This document shows positions 6,856-23,619 of a stretch of 24,293 bases of DNA, one piece after another. Source of the stretch: a virus. The notes under the pieces are model-generated. The model worked only from the letters and a program-made list of their open reading frames with translations. It had not been told where the DNA came from and searched no databases. Position 1 is the first letter of the stretch. Every line of letters begins with the position of its first letter. The stretch is taken from positions 1 through 24,293 of the IMG/VR virus record IMGVR_UViG_3300038856_000019; one strand, 5' to 3'. A program made the translations under genes and the position numbers.

Positions 6856-6888
6856 GTGCGGTGGGGTGCTCACCCCACCCCACCGCAC
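6856..6888 (+). terminator. Strong hairpin just after the capsid gene
   Basis: GTGCGGTGGGG (6856-6866) and CCCCACCGCAC (6878-6888) form a perfect 11-bp stem with an 11-nt loop. No U-tract follows, so it is not a classic rho-independent terminator. It starts seven bases after the capsid stop and lies upstream of the next ribosome binding site. It may reduce downstream transcription or stabilise the 3' end of the highly expressed capsid message. Confidence 0.5.
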
Positions 6889-6918
6889 GACCAACTCCAG
6901 GGTGAGAGGAGAAGAACG

Positions 6919-7254
6919 ATGAAGTACAGCAAGCTCGCCGTCGTCCTGCGGTGGTCGGGCGGCACGACGATCCTGCGTAAGGGACAGTCGGCCGACGACG
7001 ACCATCCGCTGGTCAAGGAGCGGCCGGACCTGTTCACGGACGTGGCGCCGGGTGCGTCGCTGGCCACGCCACGTCCGGCGGTGGAGCGCGCCACCCGCGC
7101 GCCGGGTGAGGTGCGTACCGCCGAGTCGGCGAAGACGCGGGAGATCCGGGAGTGGGCACTGGCCAACGGGTACGGGGTGCCGGCGCGTGGCCGGCTGCCC
7201 GCTGAGGTGGTCGAGGCGTACAACGCCGCGCACCGGCCGGTCGTCGATGAGTGA
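6919..7254 (+). CDS. Small head protein with an Lsr2-type C-terminal DNA-binding domain
   Basis: The product has 111 residues. The N-terminal part (1-42) contains LRKGQ and DDDHPLVKERPDLFT, a pattern common in small proteins encoded after actinophage capsid genes, probably a head accessory or connector element. Residues about 73-106 (TREIREWALANGYGVPARGR, then LPAEVVEAYNAAH) match the C-terminal DNA-binding domain of Lsr2, including the R90-G91-R92 motif that in Lsr2 enters the minor groove of AT-rich DNA. The Lsr2 dimerisation domain is absent. ATG 6919 is preceded by GAGAGGAGAAG; an earlier in-frame GTG at 6856 falls inside the hairpin and is unlikely. It overlaps the next gene by eight bases. 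It could package with DNA or tether DNA to the head. Confidence 0.75.
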   Translation: MKYSKLAVVLRWSGGTTILRKGQSADDDHPLVKERPDLFTDVAPGASLATPRPAVERATRAPGEVRTAESAKTREIREWALANGYGVPARGRLPAEVVEAYNAAHRPVVDE

Positions 7255-8002
7255 GGGCAACGGCCGGGTTCAGATTGCGTACCTGCACCGGCACAACGTG
7301 TCGCATTCGTGGCACGAGTCGATGATGCGGCTGATCGGGTGGGACGCGGCCAACCACGGCCGGATCATCGACACCGCCGGCCCGTTCATGATCTCCACGG
7401 ACGCGTCCGGCCTGGCCGACGCGCGTAACAGCGGCTGCCAGCGGTTCCTTGACGAAACGGACCACGAGTGGCTGTGGTTCGTCGACACGGACATGGGGTT
7501 CCTGCCGGACACGATCGACCGGCTGGTCGACGCCGCCGACCCGGATGAGCGGCCGGTGGTCGGCGGGCTGTGCTTCATGTTGCGGGAGATGGCCTACGAC
7601 GGCTACGGCGGCCGCCGGGTGATGGCCGCTCCGGCGATGCACATGCCGGCGCGAACCCCGGAGGGCGTGGTCGGGTTCACGGTGCGCTGGGAGTATCCGG
7701 CGAACACGCTGGTGCAGGTGGCCGGTACGGGTGCGGCGTGCCTGCTGATCCATCGGGGCGTGTTGGAGAAGCTGCGCGCGGACGGAGGTGACCACTGGTT
7801 CAGCCGGGTGCGCTACGAGGACGGCGTGCTGATCTCGGAGGACCTGTCGTTCTGCGCCCGGCTGATGCAGCAGGGGGTTCCGCTGTTCGTGCACACCGGC
7901 GTGAAGACCACCCATCACAAGCAGGTGTGGATCGGTGAGGAGGACTACACCGTCCCGAAGCTGGTGACCGGCGATGATGAGACGGCCGGCGGCGATGGCT
8001 GA
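7247..8002 (+). CDS. GT-A type glycosyltransferase-like protein
   Basis: This 251-residue protein has the layout of a GT-A fold sugar transferase: N-terminal VQIAYLHRHNVSHSW, then DADARN-like ASGLADARNSG (about 53-63), a DxD-type metal site in WLWFVDTDMGF (D80-T-D82), VVGGLCF (104-110) and a later GTGAACLLIHRGVLEKL. The C-terminal part has SEDLSFCARL and a His-rich VKTTHHKQVW, where the family often has metal-binding or catalytic residues. No membrane segment is seen, so it is probably cytosolic. It begins the sugar cassette, overlapping the Lsr2-like gene by eight bases and the methyltransferase gene by eight bases. The target may be a virion protein or surface glycan; donor and acceptor are unknown. 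Confidence 0.75.
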   Translation: MSEGNGRVQIAYLHRHNVSHSWHESMMRLIGWDAANHGRIIDTAGPFMISTDASGLADARNSGCQRFLDETDHEWLWFVDTDMGFLPDTIDRLVDAADPDERPVVGGLCFMLREMAYDGYGGRRVMAAPAMHMPARTPEGVVGFTVRWEYPANTLVQVAGTGAACLLIHRGVLEKLRADGGDHWFSRVRYEDGVLISEDLSFCARLMQQGVPLFVHTGVKTTHHKQVWIGEEDYTVPKLVTGDDETAGGDG

Positions 8003-8660
8003 CCTGCGCGTCGCGGACCGGCTGGAGCTCGACCGGCGTGTCCGGCTCGTGAGCAAGCCTGCGCCCCACACCCAGCACCACATTGACGCGTTCCTGGACG
8101 CTGTGCTGGCCGCCCCGGTACCCGGGGCGCTGGTGGAGTGCGGCGTCTACGAGGGTGTGTCCGCGGCGAAGTGGTCGCATCTGGCGGACATGCTGGGCCG
8201 GCAGTTGTGGCTGTTCGACAGCTTCGAGGGTTTGCCGCCGAATGACGAACCGCATACCCGGTCCCGTACCGGTAAGGATCTCCAGGGCATCCACGCGGCG
8301 GGCCGCTGGCGGGCGTCGCTGTCGGAGGCGCAGGAGACGGTGCAGCGCTACGGCGTGCCGGACGTGGTGCGCTGGGTGCCGGGCTGGTTCGACGCCACGC
8401 TGCCGGCGTTCGCGGGCTTAGAGCCAAAGGTGGCCGCCGCCTACCTGGACGTGGACTTGGTCGCCTCGACCGTCACCTGCCTGGAGCACCTGTGGCCGCT
8501 GGTCACGCCCGGCGGCGTGATCGTGAGCCAGGACGGCGACTTCCTGCTGGTGATCGACGCCATTGCGAGGTGGGCGGAGCGGGCCGACCCAAACCCGGAG
8601 GTCACCGGTCTGGGCACGTCGAAGATGGTGGTCCTACGTAAGCCGGGTGAGCAGTGGTGA
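7995..8660 (+). CDS. TylF/MycF-family sugar O-methyltransferase
   Basis: This 221-residue SAM-dependent methyltransferase resembles macrocin O-methyltransferase (TylF) and mycinamicin MycF, which methylate hydroxyls of deoxysugars in a metal-dependent way. The SAM site is GALVECGVYEGVSA (44-57) and the second motif is LWLFDSFEGLP (71-81). The metal/catalytic region is YLDVDLVAST (150-159, with D152 and D154), followed by CLEHLWPLVTPGGVIVSQDG. All core motifs look intact. I chose ATG 7995 (eight-base overlap with the upstream gene); ATGs at 7974 and 7977 are in-frame alternatives, and none has a clear Shine-Dalgarno, so coupling is likely. Next to an epimerase and glycosyltransferases, an O-methylated sugar product is a reasonable inference. 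Confidence 0.82.
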   Translation: MADLRVADRLELDRRVRLVSKPAPHTQHHIDAFLDAVLAAPVPGALVECGVYEGVSAAKWSHLADMLGRQLWLFDSFEGLPPNDEPHTRSRTGKDLQGIHAAGRWRASLSEAQETVQRYGVPDVVRWVPGWFDATLPAFAGLEPKVAAAYLDVDLVASTVTCLEHLWPLVTPGGVIVSQDGDFLLVIDAIARWAERADPNPEVTGLGTSKMVVLRKPGEQW

Positions 8661-9577
8661 GGGTCGGGGTGACCGGCGGCGCCGGGTTCATCGGCGGTCA
8701 CGTCTGCGCCGAGCTCGCCGTGCGCGGCCACGAGCCGGTGGTGTTCGACCGTTCCGGGCGCGGTGACGGTGCGGTGATGTTGGGGGATGTGCGGGACGCG
8801 ACCGCGGTGACGGAGCTGGCCGCGCATGTGGACGGGATCATCCACCTGTCCGGGCTGCTGGGCACCCAGGAGATGGTCGCCAACCCGCGTCCGGCGGTGG
8901 ACACCAACATCTGCGGGGGGATCAACGTCCTGGAGGCCGCCGCGCAGTACCGCATTCCTGTGGTCGTGCCCGGTGTCGGCAACCATTTCATGGACAACAC
9001 GTACGCCATCACGAAGACCACCATCGAGCGGTTCGCGGCGATGTACGCCCGTGAGCGCGGGGTGCCGGTCAACGTGGTGCGGATGGTCAACGCCTACGGT
9101 CCGGGCCAGTCGGTGTCCGCGCCGTACGGTCCGGGGAAGGTCCGTAAGATCGTGCCGGCGTTCGTGTGCCGGGTGCTGACTGGCGCGCCGGTCGAGGTGT
9201 ACGGCGATGGTGGTCAGGTTTCGGACATGGTGTGGGTGGGTGACGCGGCCCGGGCGCTGGTGTCCGCACTGGAGCGGGCTGCCGCCGGTGTCGTGTTCGA
9301 CCGGGTGGTGGAGTGCGGGCCGGCGCAGCATGCCACGGTGATGCAGGTCGCCCAGTCGGTGTGCAAGGCGGCGGCCGGTCTCGGTTTCGACCCGCCGGAG
9401 ATCGTCTGCCTGTTGATGCGTCCGGGTGAGACGTCGGGGGTGGATGTGACCGCCGACTCGTCGACGCTCGAGTTGGTCGGGATGGACCCGGCCACGCTCA
9501 GGCCGCTCGAGGATGGTCTCGCCGAGACGGTGGCGTGGTATGTCCGGCATTGGCTGCCGACCTACCTGCGGCGATGA
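8657..9577 (+). CDS. NAD-dependent epimerase/dehydratase (extended SDR)
   Basis: This 306-residue Rossmann enzyme of the nucleotide-sugar epimerase/dehydratase family has TGGAGFIGG (6-14) for NAD(P) binding, LGDVRD (42-47), IIHLSG (61-66), the catalytic Y116-x-x-x-K120 in NTYAITKTT, and VNAYGPGQ (about 139-146). A C-terminal domain (VEVYGDGGQVSDMVWVGD onward) fits substrate binding. The usual Ser/Thr of the triad lies in a diverged PGVGNHF segment, so a reduced or altered activity is possible. Family members interconvert or dehydrate NDP-sugars such as UDP-glucose or dTDP-glucose. The GTG at 8657 gives a GTGA overlap with the methyltransferase; GTG 8654 is one codon upstream. It probably supplies the sugar donor for the cassette's transferases. 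Confidence 0.85.
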   Translation: MRVGVTGGAGFIGGHVCAELAVRGHEPVVFDRSGRGDGAVMLGDVRDATAVTELAAHVDGIIHLSGLLGTQEMVANPRPAVDTNICGGINVLEAAAQYRIPVVVPGVGNHFMDNTYAITKTTIERFAAMYARERGVPVNVVRMVNAYGPGQSVSAPYGPGKVRKIVPAFVCRVLTGAPVEVYGDGGQVSDMVWVGDAARALVSALERAAAGVVFDRVVECGPAQHATVMQVAQSVCKAAAGLGFDPPEIVCLLMRPGETSGVDVTADSSTLELVGMDPATLRPLEDGLAETVAWYVRHWLPTYLRR

Positions 9578-10485
9578 GACTGCTCCTACTGGGTGCTCCC
9601 GACTGGGGCCGGGACTGCTGGCACGACGACCTGGCCGACGACGCCGGCCGGGTGCTGGGCTGGCGGGTGGACTACCTCGCGGTCAAGGACGCCCCGGTCG
9701 ACGACATCGTCCGCGCGGCCAGGGGTGCGGACCTGCTCATCTGGGCACGCACCCACGACCACAACCCGGACGGCGACGCGGCGGGGATGCTGCGCCGGAT
9801 CGAGGACGCGGGCACGGCCACGGTCGGGCTGCATCTGGACATGTACTGGGGGATGCCGGTCCGCGAACGGCAGATCGGCCGCCGTGCGTGGTGGACCTGC
9901 CAGTACGTCTACACGACTGACGGCGGGCCGAGGCCATGGCACACGCGGGGTGTGAACCACCACTGGTGTCCGCAGGCGGTGGGTAGTCGCCGCCTGGGCC
10001 GCGCCGAACCGGCCGGCAGCGCCCGGTTCATGTTCGCCGGGTCGCTACATACCGCGCACACCGCGCACCGTCCGCAGATGGTCGCCTGGGCGCGGCAGCA
10101 CTGGGGCGACGAGTTCGTCCACTACAACGAGTTTGCGGGGACCGGTATCTACGGTGACGATTTGTCCCGGGCCGTGTCGTACGCGCATTGCGTGCTCGGT
10201 GATTCGGTGCCGGCGGCCGGCTACTGGTCGGACCGGGGTGTGCGGGTGATGGCCCGCGGCGGCATCTTCGCCCACCCGCGGTTCGCCGGCATGGCCGAGC
10301 AGGGTTTGACCGACGACACCATGGTCGCCTTCAACCGGTACGACTTCCAACGGCTGGGTCAGCGGGTGGATGCGATGACCGGGCCGGAGCGGGAGTCGAT
10401 GCGCGAGGCGGCGATGGCGGTAGTGGCGGACCGGCATCTGTGGCGGCACCGGTTGGAGACGATCGCACGGGAGGTGCTGGGGTGA
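9574..10485 (+). CDS. Putative GT-B type glycosyltransferase
   Basis: This 303-residue protein starts with a Rossmann-like LLLLGAPDWGRDCW and has an N-terminal half that ends around the HLDMYWG region, consistent with the first domain of a GT-B enzyme. The second half contains FMFAGSLH, ALCVLGD-like YAHCVLGDSVPAAGYWSDRG (about 205-224), VRVMARGGIFAHPRFAGMAE and a C-terminal helix with LWRHRLETIAREVL, the arrangement seen in CgeB-like and glycosyltransferase family 1 proteins, where the sugar-nucleotide site lies in this part. Its ATG overlaps the epimerase stop by four bases (ATGA), and no separate ribosome binding site is needed. Acceptor unknown. It is the second transferase-like protein of the cassette. 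Confidence 0.68.
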   Translation: MRLLLLGAPDWGRDCWHDDLADDAGRVLGWRVDYLAVKDAPVDDIVRAARGADLLIWARTHDHNPDGDAAGMLRRIEDAGTATVGLHLDMYWGMPVRERQIGRRAWWTCQYVYTTDGGPRPWHTRGVNHHWCPQAVGSRRLGRAEPAGSARFMFAGSLHTAHTAHRPQMVAWARQHWGDEFVHYNEFAGTGIYGDDLSRAVSYAHCVLGDSVPAAGYWSDRGVRVMARGGIFAHPRFAGMAEQGLTDDTMVAFNRYDFQRLGQRVDAMTGPERESMREAAMAVVADRHLWRHRLETIAREVLG

Positions 10486-10682
10486 GCGGTCAAGAGATCG
10501 AGCGGATGCAGTTGGGACTGCTCGCCATAGCCGAGCGCGCTCGGGTTGAGGCAGACGCCGGCGCTCCGGCTGGCATGGTCGCCCGTTACGTCGACATGGA
10601 GACCCGGCACGTCTTGGGCGGACACGATGGATCAGACGGCACCCGTTGTGAGATTTGCATAACCGCGTCGGTGAGTTGCTGA
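10482..10682 (+). CDS. Small hypothetical protein in the sugar cassette
   Basis: The product has 66 residues. The start is a GTG that overlaps the upstream stop by four bases (GTGA), and the TGA shares one base with the ATG of the next gene, so its frame is fixed by coupling on both sides. The N-terminal half is helical and amphipathic (IERMQLGLLAIAERARVEAD). The C-terminus has a CEICI motif and a terminal Cys, a possible metal site. I recognise no family. The tight junctions support it as a real gene. Confidence 0.6.
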   Translation: MSGQEIERMQLGLLAIAERARVEADAGAPAGMVARYVDMETRHVLGGHDGSDGTRCEICITASVSC

Positions 10683-11335
10683 TGCGCGTTCTGATCGCGT
10701 GCGCCGGGCCGGATGCCAAGTGGAACAACCACCTTGGCGTCCCGCGGCATCTGGTCCCGGTCGATGGCGAGCTGCTGCTGCACCGCACGGTCCGGCAGGC
10801 TTCGGCGTACGCGACCGACGTGCGGGTCACCTCGCCGGATGATGACCGCTACATCCTGCCGGGCACCACGCGGCATGTGGTCCGCGGCCGGCACGTCAAC
10901 GAGTACGCGTCGAGTCGGCATCTCTGGTGCCCGGGCTACCGTACGGTGCTGCTGTACGGGGACGTGTATTACACCGACGCGGCGATGGCGACGATCTGCG
11001 GCCACGACGGGCCGCTGTGGCGGATGTTCGGCCGGGCGGGACCGTCGGCTATCACGGGCACCCCGTGGGGCGAGGTGTTCGGCGGGTCCTGGCTGCCGCG
11101 CCACCACGCGATGCTCGATGAGCACATGCACAAGGCGGCACTGGCCTATGCGTGCGGCCACGCCCGGCGGACCACCGCGTGGGAGCTGCTGCGGTCGGTC
11201 CAGCACACGCCGCTGACCGTGCATATGGTGGATCCCCGGTGGTTCCACGAGATCAACGATGAGACGGACGACTTCGACACGCCGGAGGACTACACGCGGC
11301 ATCCGGCGGCACGGCGGGTGCCGAGCCGTGGCTGA
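10682..11335 (+). CDS. Nucleotidyltransferase-like (GT-A fold) protein
   Basis: This 217-residue protein has an N-terminal pattern typical of sugar-phosphate nucleotidyltransferases: RVLIACAGPDAKWNNHLGVP (2-21), then RHLVPVDGELLLHRTV, compared with the family's 'AAGxGxR...K.L.PV.G.P.L.R'. A metal/NTP-binding acidic site appears in VLLYGDVYYTD (about 90-100), and a later acidic NDETDDFDTPEDY sits near the C-terminus. The central Arg of the usual glycine-rich loop is not clearly kept, so it may be a diverged relative. Its role would be making an NDP-sugar donor from a sugar phosphate, upstream of the epimerase and transferases. The ATG overlaps the preceding TGA by one base. Confidence 0.65.
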   Translation: MRVLIACAGPDAKWNNHLGVPRHLVPVDGELLLHRTVRQASAYATDVRVTSPDDDRYILPGTTRHVVRGRHVNEYASSRHLWCPGYRTVLLYGDVYYTDAAMATICGHDGPLWRMFGRAGPSAITGTPWGEVFGGSWLPRHHAMLDEHMHKAALAYACGHARRTTAWELLRSVQHTPLTVHMVDPRWFHEINDETDDFDTPEDYTRHPAARRVPSRG

Positions 11336-15902: not shown

Positions 15903-16106
15903 TTAGCTGGGTGGCGTGAGGGGACACGACTCCTCGGTACAGCCGCGACCCGTGTAGTCGTGGAAGTCCATACACGTCGAACAGCCGGCGCAGACCGGGC
16001 ACGGTACTCCCGCGCAGGTCTTCTCAGTCCGCTCATCGGGGCGCCCCAACGTTACCGACAGCCTCAGCGTGCCATCGGACAGTTCGTCGAGACGGGTCCG
16101 GTCCAT
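15903..16106 (-). CDS. Antisense cysteine-rich microprotein
   Basis: On the minus strand, an ATG at 16106-16104 opens 67 codons ending in TAA (15905-15903). The C-terminal half has seven cysteines in a zinc-ribbon or iron-sulfur-like arrangement (CAGVPCPVCAGCSTC, then C and C further on). The N-terminus is ordinary (MDRTRLDELSDGTLRLSVTL). It fills exactly the gap between two + strand genes where the + strand has no gene, and its stop lies five bases beyond the end of the neighbour. The Shine-Dalgarno is weak (GGAA). The open frame continues upstream past this ATG, so an earlier start opposite the tail-tube gene is possible. I do not recognise the family. Confidence 0.5.
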   Translation of the reverse strand: MDRTRLDELSDGTLRLSVTLGRPDERTEKTCAGVPCPVCAGCSTCMDFHDYTGRGCTEESCPLTPPS

Positions 16107-16137
16107 TTCCGTATTGAACCACGGGAGGCGAGGTCCC

Positions 16138-16890
16138 ATGGCCAAGCTCGTGCTGCTCGACACGCGGGTATTCGTGGGTGCGGCCGACCTGTCCGGCTGG
16201 TCCAACAAGCTGGAGCTCGACGACACCATCGAAGAAAAGGAAGTGACCAACTTCCGCAGTGGTGGTGCGAAGGAGCTGCTGGGCGGTCTGGAGACGGTGT
16301 CCATCTCCGGCGAGGGCCAGTGGGAGGCCGGCGACCCGGGCAAGGTGGACGACCAGGCGTGGGCGTCGCGGCGGGTGCTCGACGCGTGGACGATGGGTGC
16401 GACCAGCGCGTCGGACACGGCCGGCGGGTCCCTGGCGTACATCGCGAAGGCGCTGCGGACCCAGTTCACCATCCTGGGCGCCGTCGGTGATGTGGCTCCG
16501 TGGTCGGCGTCGGCGACCGGCACCTGGCCGCTGGTCCGCGGTGTGTTCGCCCATCCGTCGGGGGTTGCGCGTACGACCACCGGGTCCGGCACCGCCTTCC
16601 AGGTGGGTGAGGTCGCTGCGGGCCAGCGGCTGTACGCCACTCTGCATGTCCTGAGTGTGGCGGGCACGTCCACGCCGACGATCACGGTGACGGTGCAGTC
16701 GGACAGTGCGGAGGCGTTCACCACTGATCCGCAGACCCGCCTGAGTTTCGCGGCGGCCACCGCCGCGGGTGGGCAGGTGCTGCGCACCGACGGGTCGGCG
16801 ATCGTCGGCGACGACTGGTGGCGGGTGGGGTGGACGATCACCGGCACCGATCCGAGTTTCCTGTTTGTGGCCGCGTTCGGCATCGAGTGA
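16138..16890 (+). CDS. Major tail (tube) protein, copy 1
   Basis: This 250-residue protein forms the tail tube. The N-terminal 65 residues (MAKLVLLDTRVFVGAADLSG, KLELDDTIEEKEVTNF, GGAKELLGGLETVSISGEGQ) are the tube-forming part; the second half (about 110-250, including AAGQRLYATLHVLSVAG and DDWWRVGWTITG) is a beta-rich segment seen in actinophage tail proteins. Start ATG 16138 is supported by GGGAGGCGAGG upstream. It is paralogous to the next gene over its first ~62 residues. The antisense microprotein ends upstream of this start. Confidence 0.8.
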   Translation: MAKLVLLDTRVFVGAADLSGWSNKLELDDTIEEKEVTNFRSGGAKELLGGLETVSISGEGQWEAGDPGKVDDQAWASRRVLDAWTMGATSASDTAGGSLAYIAKALRTQFTILGAVGDVAPWSASATGTWPLVRGVFAHPSGVARTTTGSGTAFQVGEVAAGQRLYATLHVLSVAGTSTPTITVTVQSDSAEAFTTDPQTRLSFAAATAAGGQVLRTDGSAIVGDDWWRVGWTITGTDPSFLFVAAFGIE

Positions 16891-16902
16891 GGGAGATAGA
16901 CC

Positions 16903-17316
16903 ATGGCTAAGAAGGTGCTGCTGGACGCGACACTGGTGATCGACAGTAACGATCTGACCCAGTGGTGCGCGAAGGTCGAGTTGGACGACACGTTCGAGGA
17001 GAAGGAAGTAACCAACTTCGCTAGCGGTGGTGCCAAGGAGGTCCTGGGTGGGTTGGAGTCCGGCGGGATCGGGATCACGTTCCGCAACAGCCACACGGCT
17101 GGCGAGCTGGACGAGATCATGTGGGCGCTGCGCCGGTCGGTGGTGACGTTCACGGTCCGCGCCGACGCCGCAGCCGTGTCCACCAGCAACCCCCAGTACT
17201 CCGGCTCGATCCTCATCAACCAGTGGTCCCCGATCATGGGGTCGGTGGGGGATGTCAACGAGCTGGACGTGACTTACCCGCTGTCCGGGGTACTGGTCCG
17301 CGCCACGGGCACCTGA
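16903..17316 (+). CDS. Major tail (tube) protein, copy 2 (short paralogue)
   Basis: This 137-residue protein has an N-terminus that is a clear copy of the preceding gene's: MAKKVLLDATLVIDSNDLTQ, VELDDTFEEKEVTNFASGGA, then GGLESGGI. The C-terminal domain is a single compact one (AGELDEIMWALRRSVVTFTV, then INQWSPIMGSVGDVNELDVT), which is closer to the classic tail-tube fold than copy 1. The start has GGGAGA upstream. A tandem duplication with divergence gives one long and one short tube protein. It overlaps the next gene by one base (TGATG). It may be the tube proper, with copy 1 as a decorated or specialised form. Confidence 0.75.
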   Translation: MAKKVLLDATLVIDSNDLTQWCAKVELDDTFEEKEVTNFASGGAKEVLGGLESGGIGITFRNSHTAGELDEIMWALRRSVVTFTVRADAAAVSTSNPQYSGSILINQWSPIMGSVGDVNELDVTYPLSGVLVRATGT

Positions 17317-17837: not shown

Positions 17838-18314
17838 GTGTTCGTCACGTACGCGCCGGCCGACGGCGACCGGCAACGCTGGGAGTGGGACCCGGACCTG
17901 GTCCGCGCTTCGGAGGCGGAGTTGTGCGAGAAGCGGTATTCCGGCACCTGGGACCAGTTCAAGGCCGCGGTGATGGGCGGGGAGACGAAGGCGCGCCGGG
18001 TGCTGTTGTGGCACCTGCTGCGCCGGGACCACCACACGCTGCGTATCGAGGATGTGCCTGACTTCGCCGTGGGCGAGTTGCGGGTGGAGTGGTCGGTCAA
18101 CGAGATCCGGGTGATGCGTGACCGGATCTCGAAGGCGAAGCTGGACGAGTCCGAGCGTGAGCAGATGCTGATGGCGCTGGACGTGCAGATGGTCGACGCG
18201 ATCGAGGTGGCTGAGGTGGGAAAAGCGCCCTCGCCGCCAAGCGGGAGCGGTACTGGCCAGCCATCGCGGAAACGTTCGGCATCCGGCCGTGGGAGTGGGA
18301 CCGGATCAGCGTGA
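17838..18314 (+). CDS. Tail assembly chaperone, short (unshifted) form
   Basis: This 158-residue chaperone keeps the tape measure protein soluble and helps tube polymerisation starts. The conserved part is residues about 1-128: WEWDPDLVRASEAELCEKRY, then QFKAAVMGGETKARRVLLWH, LLRRDHHTLRIEDVPDF, and DKISKAKLDE-like DRISKAKLDESEREQMLMAL. After GGGAAAA (18218-18224) the zero frame turns into a low-complexity GS/PS/RR tail (about 130-158), a sign that the selected coding frame beyond this point is the -1 frame. It starts at GTG 17838, four bases after the previous stop. Confidence 0.85.
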   Translation: MFVTYAPADGDRQRWEWDPDLVRASEAELCEKRYSGTWDQFKAAVMGGETKARRVLLWHLLRRDHHTLRIEDVPDFAVGELRVEWSVNEIRVMRDRISKAKLDESEREQMLMALDVQMVDAIEVAEVGKAPSPPSGSGTGQPSRKRSASGRGSGTGSA

Positions 18315-18382
18315 CCGAGTTCCTGTCTGCCTGCGCCTATATCGACGAGGTCAACCGCCGGGCGGAGTCCGCGGCGAAGTAA
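17838..18382 (+). CDS. Tail assembly chaperone, -1 frameshifted long form
   Basis: The frameshifted product has 181 residues: 129 zero-frame codons to 18224, then 52 codons read from the base before (18224-18379) and the TAA at 18380-18382. The new C-terminus contains RYWPAIAETFGIRPWEWDRI and SVTEFLSACAYIDEVNRRAE, the recognisable C-terminal domain of lambda G-T type long chaperones, which links to the tape measure protein. The shift is on G-GGA-AAA, an X-XXY-YYZ slippery site in the zero frame. Such shifts are conserved in long-tailed phages and set the ratio of the two forms. Confidence 0.85.
18218..18224 (+). promoter_or_regulatory. -1 ribosomal frameshift site GGGAAAA
   Basis: In the zero frame the codons are GTG GGA AAA, so the heptamer reads G GGA AAA and lets both tRNAs re-pair one base back. 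The -1 frame downstream is open for 52 codons and encodes a conserved chaperone domain, while the zero frame becomes low-complexity. Confidence 0.88.
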
Positions 18383-18430
18383 GGGGGGTGACCTTGTGGG
18401 CCGTACAACTACGCCACCGGACCGGCGATT

Positions 18431-18556
18431 TTGGTCGAAGGTCACCACCGACCGCGAACGGATAAGCGCGGTCGTCGTTCGTGCAAGATCTGCTACCGCG
18501 TTTACGACCGTGAACGTAAGCGCGAGTTGCGTCTTGCGCGTAAGGGGGTGATCTAG
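18431..18556 (+). CDS. Small CxxC protein between chaperone and tape measure
   Basis: The frame reads GHHRPRTDKRGRRSCKICYR and then VYDRERKRELRLARKGVI to a TAG at 18554-18556. The CKIC motif with preceding His residues and a very basic, helical tail resembles small zinc-binding phage proteins. The only plausible start is TTG 18431 (41 residues), without a clear Shine-Dalgarno. The frame stays open upstream to a TGA at 18389-18391 with no ATG or GTG. It may be a remnant of a longer gene whose start was lost, or be translated by coupling from the chaperone stop. Another frame from GTG 18396 gives 50 ordinary residues but looks less protein-like. Confidence 0.4.
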   Translation: MVEGHHRPRTDKRGRRSCKICYRVYDRERKRELRLARKGVI

Positions 18557-18561
18557 AAGAC

Positions 18562-18600
18562 ATGGCAGACACATCGCTTGTCTTCAATTTAGCGTCCTAG
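18562..18600 (+). pseudogene. Detached 5' end of the tape measure gene (12 codons)
   Basis: The ATG with AGAAGA upstream encodes MADTSLVFNLAS and then TAG. The peptide MADTSLVFN followed by LARDKASKVI is the expected start of the tape measure protein, but the second part is in another frame. Removing eight bases (the extra TAGCGTCC unit around 18590-18597) restores one continuous frame into the tape measure protein. Confidence 0.7.
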
Positions 18601-18644
18601 CCCGGGACAAAGCGTCCAAGGTCATCGCCGGTGTCGGTGGGAAG

Positions 18645-20510
18645 ATGAAGCTCGCCATGGTCGCCGGTGCCACCGCTGCTGGTGCGGCCGTGGCGAGCTT
18701 CACCCGTAGCGGCGTGAAGAACTTCCTCAGCTTCGATGACGCGATGACCTCCAGCCTGGCGATCATGGGTGACATTTCGGGTCCGATGCGCCAGAAGATG
18801 GAGTCCGCGGCGCGTGGTATCGCCAAGGAGACCCGGTTCTCGGCCGACCAGGTCGCCGAGGGGTACTTCTTCCTGGCTTCCGCCGGTCTGGACGCGGCTC
18901 AGTCGATGGCTGCGCTGCCTCAGGTGGCGGCGTTCGCGACGGCCGGCAACTTCGACCTGGCGCGGGCGACGGATCTGGCCACCGATGCGCAGTCTGCGCT
19001 CGGCTTGACCTCCGACGACGCGGCCACCAACCTGGACAATCTGACCAGGGTGACGGATGTGTTCGTACGGGCGAACACCCTCGCGAATACGAGCGTCGAG
19101 CAGATCTCCGAAGCCATGACCAACAAGGCGGGCGCGGCTATGCGCTCGGTGGGCATGGACATCGAGGAGGGCGCCGCGGTACTGGCCGCGTTCGCGGATC
19201 AGGGTGTGAAGGGGGCGGAGGCCGGGACCCAGTTCGCGATCGTGCTACGGGATTTGCAGACGAAGGCGCTTGGCAACAAGGAGGAGTTCGCGAAGCTCGG
19301 AGTGTCCGTGTTCGACGCGGACGGCGAGATGCGCAACATGGCGGACATCGTCGGCGACCTGGAGGGCCTGCTGGCCGGCATGTCGGATGAGCAGAAGAAG
19401 GCGACCCTGGCGCAGCTCGGGTTCTCCGACAAGTCGATGGGCGCGCTCCAGACGCTGCTGGGGACCAGCGACGCGATCCGCGGGTATGAGGAGGAGCTGC
19501 GCAGCGCGTCGGGGGTTACCGAGGAGGTCGCGGACAAGCAGTTGCAGAGCTTCCAGGCGCAGTGGGATCTCGCCAAGAGCAAGATCACGGACGTGGGTAT
19601 CTCGCTGGGCTCTTTCCTGGTGCCGAAGCTGGCGCAGGCCGCGGACTGGGTGTCGCGTAACAAGGAGACGCTCACGAAGGTCGCGGTGGTGCTGGGGATC
19701 GTGGCGGGCGCGGTCACGGCGGTGTGGGTCGCGGTCAAGATTTACAACGGTGTGATGATGGTGTGGCGCGGCATGATGATGATCGCGACGGCCGCCCAGT
19801 GGCTGTTCAACATCGCCGTGTCCGCGAACCCGATCACTCTCATCATCCTGGCGATCATCGCGCTGATCGCCGTGATCGTCCTGATCGCGACGAAGACGAC
19901 GTGGTTCCAGGACCTGTGGAGGCTGGTGTGGGGTGGTATCAAGGCCGCCGCGCTCGCGGTGGGCCGGTGGTTCATGGACGTGTTGTGGCGGAAGTGGATC
20001 CTGGGCGCGTTCAACGCGATCGCCGGATTTGCCGGCAAGACAAGGGACAAGGTGGTCGGGTTCTTCGTGAGCATGAAGGACCGGCTGCTTGAGCTGCCGG
20101 GTAAGATCCGCAAGGGGTTCTCCAAGATTTTCTCTATCGTCACCGCCCCGTTCCGTGCCGCGTTCAACGCGATCGCCGGGTACTGGAACCGGACGATCGG
20201 CGGGCGGGGTTTCACCGCCCCGTCGTGGGTGCCGTTCGGGGTGGGTGGTAGGAGCTTCACGTTCCCCACGATCCCGACGCTGGCGGCCGGTGGGATCGTC
20301 ACGAGCCCGACGCTGGCGATGATCGGCGAGGCCGGGCCGGAGGCTGTGGTCCCGTTGCGGCGCGGTGGCGGTGCGGCGGCCGGTGGTACCACGGTGGTCA
20401 AGTTCGTGGCGGACGGTTCGCGCGCGTCCCGATTGCTGCTGGAGCTGCTGCGCGAGGCGGCGCGGGTCACGGGTGGCGGGTCGGTTCAGGTGGTGTTCGG
20501 CCGTGACTGA
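18645..20510 (+). CDS. Tape measure protein (TP901-type), 5' end displaced by a frameshift
   Basis: This protein sets tail length and is injected with DNA. The visible frame from ATG 18645 has 621 residues. The N-terminal TP901 core runs from FLSFDDAMTSSLAIMGDISG (about 27-46) through AARGIAKETRFSADQVAEGY and LATDAQSALGLTSDDAATNL to QFQAQWDLAKSK-like LQSFQAQWDLAKSKITDVGI. Two hydrophobic stretches follow at about 346-362 and 395-416 (NPITLIILAIIALIAVIVLI), then a C-terminal AGGIVTSPTLAMIGEAGPEA motif common in tape measure proteins. The frame is open upstream of 18645 and reads LARDKASKVIAGVGGK, which belongs after the detached 5' piece at 18562-18600. As it stands, translation would have to restart at 18645 or 18657. 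The protein is short for a tape measure, suggesting a tail of roughly 90 nm by the usual rule. Confidence 0.82.
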   Translation: MKLAMVAGATAAGAAVASFTRSGVKNFLSFDDAMTSSLAIMGDISGPMRQKMESAARGIAKETRFSADQVAEGYFFLASAGLDAAQSMAALPQVAAFATAGNFDLARATDLATDAQSALGLTSDDAATNLDNLTRVTDVFVRANTLANTSVEQISEAMTNKAGAAMRSVGMDIEEGAAVLAAFADQGVKGAEAGTQFAIVLRDLQTKALGNKEEFAKLGVSVFDADGEMRNMADIVGDLEGLLAGMSDEQKKATLAQLGFSDKSMGALQTLLGTSDAIRGYEEELRSASGVTEEVADKQLQSFQAQWDLAKSKITDVGISLGSFLVPKLAQAADWVSRNKETLTKVAVVLGIVAGAVTAVWVAVKIYNGVMMVWRGMMMIATAAQWLFNIAVSANPITLIILAIIALIAVIVLIATKTTWFQDLWRLVWGGIKAAALAVGRWFMDVLWRKWILGAFNAIAGFAGKTRDKVVGFFVSMKDRLLELPGKIRKGFSKIFSIVTAPFRAAFNAIAGYWNRTIGGRGFTAPSWVPFGVGGRSFTFPTIPTLAAGGIVTSPTLAMIGEAGPEAVVPLRRGGGAAAGGTTVVKFVADGSRASRLLLELLREAARVTGGGSVQVVFGRD

Positions 20511-20541: not shown

Positions 20542-20574
20542 GGGGATCAAACCTGTCGAGGAGGTTTGATCCCC
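20542..20574 (+). promoter_or_regulatory. Perfect 12-bp hairpin overlapping a ribosome binding site
   Basis: GGGGATCAAACC (20542-20553) and GGTTTGATCCCC (20563-20574) form a perfect 12-bp stem with a 9-nt loop. The ATG at 20575 follows immediately. The GAGGAGG Shine-Dalgarno (20558-20564) lies in the loop and first two stem bases. Pairing would leave much of it in the loop, so it could hold the site in a defined exposed or protected state. No U-tract follows. Confidence 0.7.
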
Positions 20575-22071
20575 ATGGCTCGCCATCCTATCCGTCGCGT
20601 GGTCGCGCTGCTGGCGTCGCTGGTCCTGGTTCTAACTCTGGGAGGTGCGGTGGCCGGCGAGCTTGCGACCGTCAAGGTTGAGTTGTTCTACTCCGGCGCG
20701 TGGCATGACATCACCGCGGACACCCGGACGCCGATCACGATCGACGACGGGACACCCAACGAGGGTACGGCCTGGTGGCCGGACCCTGGCACGGTGAGCT
20801 TGCGGCTGAACAACGGCCCGTCCAACGTCTACGCCGGATCGTCGGGGGTCTACGACCCGGACAACCCGCGCTCACCGCTTTACGGGCTCATCAACGACGG
20901 GACCCAGATCCGGGTGTCCGCCGCGCTGGGCTCCAACCCGCTGTCCGTGCGGTGCGTGATGGAGCTGTCGGACTGGTCTCCGGGTTGGGACCCGGACGCC
21001 GAGGAGTCCGGCGACGTGTGGATCGACGTGACCGCATCCGGCATCACCCGGCGGCTGGGGATCCCAGGCTCGCCGCTGTTGCCTGCGCTGCAACGGGCCT
21101 CGAATGCCGCTGTGCAGGCATCCTGGCCGTTGGCCAGTCTGCCGCAGGACGCGCGGCGTGCCCCCTCGGCGCGATCAGGCGGGTCGGACGCGATCATCCG
21201 ACCCACGAGCAGCGGGCAGCTCGCGTTCGCGGTCGAGTTCGGGGCCGACAACACCGCCCCAGGGCTGGGGGCGATGCCCACCGTGAAGCAGTCCCAGACC
21301 GGGTTTGGCCTGACCGGGCAACTGCCTGTCGGTATCACGGAGCCGTTCGCGTCGATGATGTGGGGCCGCGCCGCTGGGGACAACATATCCGGCCAGTTCA
21401 CTATGTGGCTGGACACAGAGGACACGAAGTGGCTGCTGTGGGTGCTGTGGGAGACGCCATCCACAGGCGTGAACCTGGTGATCGTCGAGGCGCGGGACGC
21501 CGACGGCAGCACCCTGGTGTCGTTGTCGAACAGCTCGGCCATCTCCTACGATGATTTGTGGCACAGTTACGCGCTCATGGTTGAACAGGACGGCTCCGAC
21601 GCGGTCGTGACCGTGTACCGGGACGCGGCGGAAATAGCGATGTCGGTTGGTAGTGGCAGCCTGTCCGGGATCGACGTTGGTGCGCCCCGGCAGGTCCGGG
21701 CGACCGGCACGCTGACCACCAACGCGGGGGATGGTCAGTCCGTGGGATACCCCACGGTCCTGTCCGGGACGGCTGCGGTGATCACTGCGGCGGTGGCCGA
21801 CCTGCACACCGCTGGCACCGGCCACGTCGGCGAGACCGCCGGCCGTCGGTTCGAGCGGCTGTGCTCGGAGCAAGGTGTGGCGTTCACATCCACGGGTGAC
21901 CTGGACGAGACGCGGCCGATGGGACCACAGAAGCCGGCGCGGCTGGTGGCGCTGCTGCGTGAGTGCGCCAAGGCGGAGGCGGCCGGGGCGCAGGCACCCA
22001 TCGTGCGTGAACAGCAGACCGCGCTCGGGTTGCACTTCCGGACGCTGCGCTCGTTCTACATCACCGAGTAG
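20575..22071 (+). CDS. Minor tail/baseplate protein with a signal-peptide-like N-terminus
   Basis: From ATG 20575 the protein has 498 residues. Residues 1-28 (MARHPIRRVVALLASL, then VLVLTLGGAVAG) look like a signal peptide with basic n-region, hydrophobic core and AVA at 25-27, unusual for a tail protein. The rest begins ATVKVELFYSGAWHDITADT, the start typical of distal tail/baseplate proteins of actinophages, followed by RSPLYGLINDGTQIRVSA. A LamG-like segment spans about 240-360 (QFTMWLDTEDTKWLLWVLWE, DLWHSYALMVEQDGSDAVVT). An internal GTG at 20650 (codon 26) has GGGAGG at 20640-20645 and would give a protein without the signal-like segment; that may be the main start. Both could be used. 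Confidence 0.75.
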   Translation: MARHPIRRVVALLASLVLVLTLGGAVAGELATVKVELFYSGAWHDITADTRTPITIDDGTPNEGTAWWPDPGTVSLRLNNGPSNVYAGSSGVYDPDNPRSPLYGLINDGTQIRVSAALGSNPLSVRCVMELSDWSPGWDPDAEESGDVWIDVTASGITRRLGIPGSPLLPALQRASNAAVQASWPLASLPQDARRAPSARSGGSDAIIRPTSSGQLAFAVEFGADNTAPGLGAMPTVKQSQTGFGLTGQLPVGITEPFASMMWGRAAGDNISGQFTMWLDTEDTKWLLWVLWETPSTGVNLVIVEARDADGSTLVSLSNSSAISYDDLWHSYALMVEQDGSDAVVTVYRDAAEIAMSVGSGSLSGIDVGAPRQVRATGTLTTNAGDGQSVGYPTVLSGTAAVITAAVADLHTAGTGHVGETAGRRFERLCSEQGVAFTSTGDLDETRPMGPQKPARLVALLRECAKAEAAGAQAPIVREQQTALGLHFRTLRSFYITE

Positions 22072-22116: not shown

Positions 22117-23619
22117 TTGGCCGCACCTGTGCTCACGCTGTCCTACGGCGACGGCGAGGTCGGGCCACCGTTCCGGCCGGTGCGCGACGACTCGATCACC
22201 GCGAACCTGGTCACCGCCAAGCGGGAGGACGGCGGGGAGGCCACCGCCGAGCGGACCACTGGCCCGCGCTCGACCCAGGACCCGCCCGACGGCATCGGCC
22301 TGTACGACCGGGACGACACGTTCAACGTGGCCACGGACGAGCAGTTGCCGAACATGGCCGGCCATTGGCTGAACCATGGCACACAGTCCCCGAGGCGCTA
22401 CCCGGTGCTGCGGGTCAACGTGCGCGGCCTGTCCGTGCGGACCGGCGGTGAGGCGCTGGTCGGTGACGCGCTGGACCTGGTGCGCGGTGACCGGGTGCTG
22501 GTCACGGACCCGCCGGACTGGCTGGCGGGTGAGGACGTGGACCAGTTGCTGCTGGGCCGGTCCGAGCGCATCGACCAGGACGAGTGGCTGATCGATTGGC
22601 ACACGACACCGGCCGGCCCGTACACGGTGGGCACCTACCAGTCCGGGTCGCCGGAGCCGGGGCCCGCGGAGCCGGCGAGGTACGCGAGCGCCGGGTGTGA
22701 GGTCGTAGCCGGGCTGGTATTGCCGGGCACGTCCGGCGACTACGCGTCCACTCCGGACGCGGCGGTGCTGGACATCACCGGGGACATCGACATGCGTGCG
22801 TTGCTGCACCTGCCTCATGGCTGGGTGCAGCCCGGTGGCGAGTCCGACCCCCACGACATCGTTTCCAAGTACGTCATCGGCACCGACCAGCGGTCCTATT
22901 CGTTGTTCCTGGTGGGTGTGACCCCGAACCTTGGGTGGTCGGAGGCCGGTAGTGACGTGAAGTTCGCCGCGGCCACGGAGGTGCCCACTTCGGCGGGTGT
23001 GGTGGGGCTGCGGGCGACTCTGGACGCGGACAACGGCGCGTCCGGGCGGACGGTCACGTTCTACACCCTGGCCTCCGGTGTCACCGACCTGAACGCCGAC
23101 GACACACTGTGGACCCAGCTCGGGGATCCGGTGGTGCAGGCCGGGGCAACGTCCATCCACGCCGGCACCGCACCGCTGGAGGTCGGGTCGAGGGAGGTCG
23201 GCACGGCTGACTTCTTCGTCGGGACGGTGCTGGCGATGCAGGTGCGCGACGGCATCGCCGGCACGGTGGTGGCATCCGCCGACTTCGCCGCACAGGCGGA
23301 GGGCACCACGTCGTTCTCCGACTCGGCGGGCAATACCTGGACGGTGCACGGGGACGCGGAGATCCTGCATCCGGTCTCCGGCACGTCGACGGCGTTGACG
23401 GTGGTCACGACCCTGGGCCCGGCGTGGACCACGGACACGGCCGCGGTGCCGCTGGACCTGCGGGTCGCGGGGGTGCGGCCCCGGGTCACCGCCATCGCGG
23501 CGGAGTCCAACGGGGTGCAGGTGCTCACGATCGAACAGACCCCGGTCAACGGGGTGAACAAGACGATTCCGGCCGGGTCCGACGTGCAGCTGTGGACCCC
23601 TGCCCGGTACGGCCTGTAG
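22117..23619 (+). CDS. Minor tail protein with LamG-like domain
   Basis: This 500-residue protein starts at a TTG about six bases after AGGGGGTGAG. Residues about 1-170 (FRPVRDDSITANLVTAKRED, DDTFNVATDEQLPNMAGHW, RVLVTDPPDWLAGEDVDQLL) resemble the hub or baseplate-like part of actinophage tail-tip proteins. A concanavalin/LamG-like domain lies at about 200-400 (DYASTPDAAVLDITGDIDMR, SKYVIGTDQRSYSLFLVG, FFVGTVLAMQVRDGIAGTVV). The C-terminal ~80 residues (AVPLDLRVAGVRPRVTAIAA, LTIEQTPVNGVNKTI) form a beta domain. Likely a tail-tip or receptor-binding component. It follows the previous gene by 45 bases. Confidence 0.72.
   Translation: MAAPVLTLSYGDGEVGPPFRPVRDDSITANLVTAKREDGGEATAERTTGPRSTQDPPDGIGLYDRDDTFNVATDEQLPNMAGHWLNHGTQSPRRYPVLRVNVRGLSVRTGGEALVGDALDLVRGDRVLVTDPPDWLAGEDVDQLLLGRSERIDQDEWLIDWHTTPAGPYTVGTYQSGSPEPGPAEPARYASAGCEVVAGLVLPGTSGDYASTPDAAVLDITGDIDMRALLHLPHGWVQPGGESDPHDIVSKYVIGTDQRSYSLFLVGVTPNLGWSEAGSDVKFAAATEVPTSAGVVGLRATLDADNGASGRTVTFYTLASGVTDLNADDTLWTQLGDPVVQAGATSIHAGTAPLEVGSREVGTADFFVGTVLAMQVRDGIAGTVVASADFAAQAEGTTSFSDSAGNTWTVHGDAEILHPVSGTSTALTVVTTLGPAWTTDTAAVPLDLRVAGVRPRVTAIAAESNGVQVLTIEQTPVNGVNKTIPAGSDVQLWTPARYGL

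Follow-up and report, generated by a model that had tools for sequence, protein, structure and literature searches.

Is the tape measure gene of this phage broken close to its start by accident, or is the break one that ribosomes cross? The window, by which we mean the whole 24,293-base linear virus record analyzed here, is a fragment of an environmental bacterial virus and carries the terminase, portal, protease, capsid, tail and tape measure module of a tailed phage. Its host is probably actinobacterial, and its minor tail gene has its best annotated relatives in Streptomyces phages. The tape measure gene follows the tail chaperone genes (phrog_17335 upstream) and precedes the minor tail genes (phrog_5313 downstream), and its core matches PF10145 at 125 bits, above the cut-off of 33.2, and phrog_991 at 256.6 bits. 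Five features define the locus:

18562..18600, + strand: 5′ fragment of the tape measure gene, MADTSLVFNLAS followed by TAG, with a DTSLVFN start common to 103 other places in viral contigs
18589..18599, + strand: 11-nt interval between the AAT (N) and GCC (A) codons, containing five surplus bases; 6 nt in every relative
18597..20510, + strand: remainder of the tape measure gene in the −1 frame, PF10145, phrog_991
18611..18617, + strand: AGCGTCC, second copy of a 7-mer, in which GCGTCC is native coding sequence (Ala-Ser)
18645..18647, + strand: ATG, first usable start codon of the downstream frame, giving a 621-aa product that lacks the N-terminal segment

We consider it very probable that the contig carries an ordinary out-of-frame indel in the tape measure gene and no regulatory or recoding device.

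A frame break measured against intact relatives

The frame that opens at the family start is not a single continuous one in the window. From ATG 18562 it encodes MADTSLVFN and runs to TAG at 18598-18600 after 12 residues, while ARDKASKVI and the remaining tape measure protein lie in the −1 frame and extend to 20510. A first-pass annotation had placed the stop directly after MADTSLVFN, overlooking the last residues of MADTSLVFNLAS, and had correctly located the continuation of the protein in another frame.

We looked in IMG/VR for DNA matching a DTSLVFN pattern, with no constraint on the sequence following it, and classed a motif as start-associated when a start codon and a Shine-Dalgarno-like sequence stood just before it. 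Among the loci examined, 104 places qualified, the window's own included. All 103 others (81 distinct) are open and the window alone is broken; four of the 103 could be followed only to the contig end, after 26-42 codons. These tape measure proteins (IMG/VR loci L111-L247) begin with [MV]x(0-2)DTSLVFN..A[RK][DE] and have a PF10145 / phrog_991 core, and the window shares their N-terminal motif, their core domain and their position after the tail chaperone genes. Where the relatives hold the start in one frame, the window gains a net five bases after its tenth codon. The main claim of the first-pass annotation, that an insertion puts the start of the tape measure gene out of frame, is thus supported against 103 intact relatives.

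Comparison of the junctions further defines the size of the surplus. Wherever the junction is read in a relative, exactly two residues separate N from A/G/T-R/K, as in FNILARDKASK, with locus L233 carrying TR after the pair. Across the 81 distinct sequences the pair is LV in 61, LI in 5, VL in 4, IL and LL in 3 each, AV and II in 2 each and VT in 1. The nearest relatives of the window start are L135 (DTSLVFNILARDKASK) and L194 (DTSLVFNILAKDKASKVF), and the window peptides DTSLVFN (frame 1) and ARDKASK (frame 0) both occur unchanged in L135, whose start is contiguous (VADTSLVFNILARDKASK). The junction interval is 11 bases long in the window and 6 in the relatives, a net gain of five. Deleting eight bases, as originally proposed, does restore the frame but leaves one residue fewer than in any relative; the constant two-residue spacing of the relatives between N and A puts the surplus at five bases, not eight. 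Its exact place within 18589-18599 cannot be fixed, as VL, LL and LV are all junction pairs compatible with the family. A near-identical sister record was sought in phages and in IMG/VR and none was found, and 396 genomes from the phylum of an actinobacterial locus, searched for the tape measure protein and for the DTSLVFN pattern, gave no useful relative.

On this reading, an ordinary indel of net +5 bases would lie between codons 9 and 12 of the gene. Translation from the normal start would end after 12 residues, and the rest of the gene would keep its coding sequence in the −1 frame, to be made only by weak initiation at ATG 18645 as a product without about 26 N-terminal residues.

We infer that the surplus bases are accidental. 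The sequence TAGCGTCC stands next to TAGC, and AGCGTCC recurs about 20 bases downstream, as first noticed. Tandem duplication of eight bases is rejected, since TAGCGTCC is followed by TAGCCCGG, which does not repeat it. At the downstream site relative L194 has GACAAGGCGTCCAAGG, which indicates that GCGTCC there is native. Some 7-mer recurs within 30 bases in about 4.6% of comparable stretches of the window; because of this background the repeat is weak evidence for templating, and insertion templated from AGCGTCC is possible. A templated duplication or polymerase slip had been called likely; duplication is excluded, and templating and slippage are indistinguishable from chance.

Internal initiation and recoding

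The alternative that survives best, although we think it improbable, is that the gene functions through the internal ATG at 18645, used directly or by re-initiation after the short 12-codon ORF. This ATG is the first start in the open frame, 45 bases 3′ of the upstream stop, and the break spares the PF10145 region, which begins at residue 71 of the frame. Although open from 18552, the downstream frame has no ATG, GTG or TTG before 18645. Against internal initiation stands the spacing of the family: across 27 relatives of the tape measure core, 61-91 codons separate the outermost candidate start from a shared SxAIM motif, and several of them have no second candidate between that start and the motif. 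The corresponding distance in the window is 62 codons from ATG 18562 with the surplus discounted, and 36 from ATG 18645. Judged by this spacing, ATG 18645 is not the normal start of the family, and the suggestion that homologs might normally begin at its equivalent, raised in the first-pass annotation, is rejected for these 27 proteins. None of the Shine-Dalgarno-like strings scanned for is present at ATG 18645, and the ARDKASK segment retained ahead of it matches the relatives, which argues that this segment was coding until recently.

Recoding at the break is unlikely. It would mean that the surplus is real and fixed and that ribosomes cross it by a short hop or a non-canonical −1 shift, leaving a structural protein of a living phage dependent on decoding over a gap right after its start, and we give this very little weight. 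The frame arrangement is conserved in none of the 103 start-associated relatives, and an Rfam search returned nothing.

A −1 ribosomal frameshift within the frame overlap (18562-18600) that yields the full protein is a still poorer candidate. The downstream frame is open from 18552, so a slip at any codon before 18598 would fuse the two frames; the local sequence is rich in A+T (TTCAATTTA), and P-site slippage could occur on a T TTA tetramer. However, CAATTTA has C where the canonical AAATTTA begins with A, none of the heptamers read in the zero frame across 18562-18600 fits a slippery X XXY YYZ pattern, and the 70 bases downstream of the junction fold no better than shuffled sequences (z −0.53). 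The product would also contain extra residues absent from every relative. In the −1 relation of two tail-operon frames the locus resembles the lambda G/GT-type frameshift of tail chaperones, but a slippery heptamer is missing from the tape measure break, which falls at a start instead of toward the end of a first ORF. The phage's own GGGAAAA site is found at the expected place, in the chaperone gene upstream:

17838..18382, + strand: tail assembly chaperone pair, first ORF 17838-18314, matched to phrog_17335

A −1 shift at this GGGAAAA (18218-18224) would lead into an overlapping frame that ends at TAA 18380-18382. This is where phages of this type ordinarily recode, and it is distinct from the tape measure break.

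Least probable of all is a programmed ribosome bypass in the manner of T4 gene 60, with take-off at TTA (18589-18591), a skip of GCGTCCTA and resumption at GCC 18600. In its favor, each frame is intact on its own side of the gap, leucine is encoded by both UUA and CUA, and a 7-bp stem (18556-18562/18579-18585) lies 5′ of the site, over the start codon, with no sign of conservation found; folding of 121 nt spanning the start is somewhat more stable than that of shuffled sequences, a weak signal (z −1.96, 6/200). In T4 gene 60 the take-off and landing codons are both GGA, a stop stands beside the take-off codon, a stem-loop forms at take-off, and the nascent peptide of a 46-codon first ORF acts in the tunnel (PMC11194080, PMC5009743). 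The window likewise has two frames separated by a short gap (8 nt, versus 50 nt in T4), but the putative take-off and landing codons differ (TTA/CTA), GCG rather than a stop follows the take-off TTA, the nascent peptide has 10 residues compared with 46 codons in gene 60, and the predicted product would be one residue shorter than every relative, none of which shows such a bypass. Of the three outcomes first envisaged, assembly error and an inactivated gene are the plausible ones, and ribosome bypass is unlikely.

Genome context and the nature of the indel

The condition of the remaining genes bears on whether the ordinary indel is an error in the consensus, or a minority variant, as opposed to a recent and real inactivating mutation. 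The terminase, portal, protease, capsid, connector, tail terminator, major tail and chaperone genes, and the remaining tape measure frame, have family matches without breaks. As every other family-matched gene appears intact, we do not read the contig as a decayed prophage and reject both general decay and poor assembly, and we lean slightly toward a consensus error or minority variant. A five-base insertion is, against this, not the commonest error of short-read assembly.

Several neighboring regions have features of their own. Between the chaperone and tape measure genes (18398-18556) lies a basic frame, GPYNYATGPAILVEGHHRPRTDKRGRRSCKICYRVYDRERKRELRLARKGVI, with a CxxC motif; it spans 52 codons (18398-18553) and has no ATG or GTG start, only TTG at 18431. 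Relatives of this frame were sought with a possible second indel in mind, and none was found. Just downstream of the tape measure gene, phiSASD1 (gp38), Dubu, Chymera, Eklok and Dryad each have a single ORF, where the window has two in one frame, 20574-22071 and 22117-23619. The middle region of the 22117-23619 ORF matches the N-terminal part of the single-gene homologs, which indicates a rearrangement. A second indel was rejected as the cause of this split: the ORFs share one frame, have their own spacer and start, and look like two genes. Further upstream, two adjacent genes at 16069-17316 both match major tail protein families (phrog_9522 and phrog_4574). A sugar cassette of glycosyltransferases, a methyltransferase and a nucleotide-sugar epimerase sits within the structural module at 7052-11335, and the gene adjoining it (6856-7254) combines an Lsr2-like C-terminus with a connector-like stretch.

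Together, these observations point to a broken gene start that results from ordinary mutation or assembly error and not from a special decoding trick. As it stands, the break matters little, being one broken start in one metagenomic contig. It does call for caution in annotation, as gene calling would place the start of the tape measure protein at 18645, with unnoticed loss of the N-terminus. If the surplus were real and crossed by ribosomes, the locus would be a new case of recoding in a structural gene.
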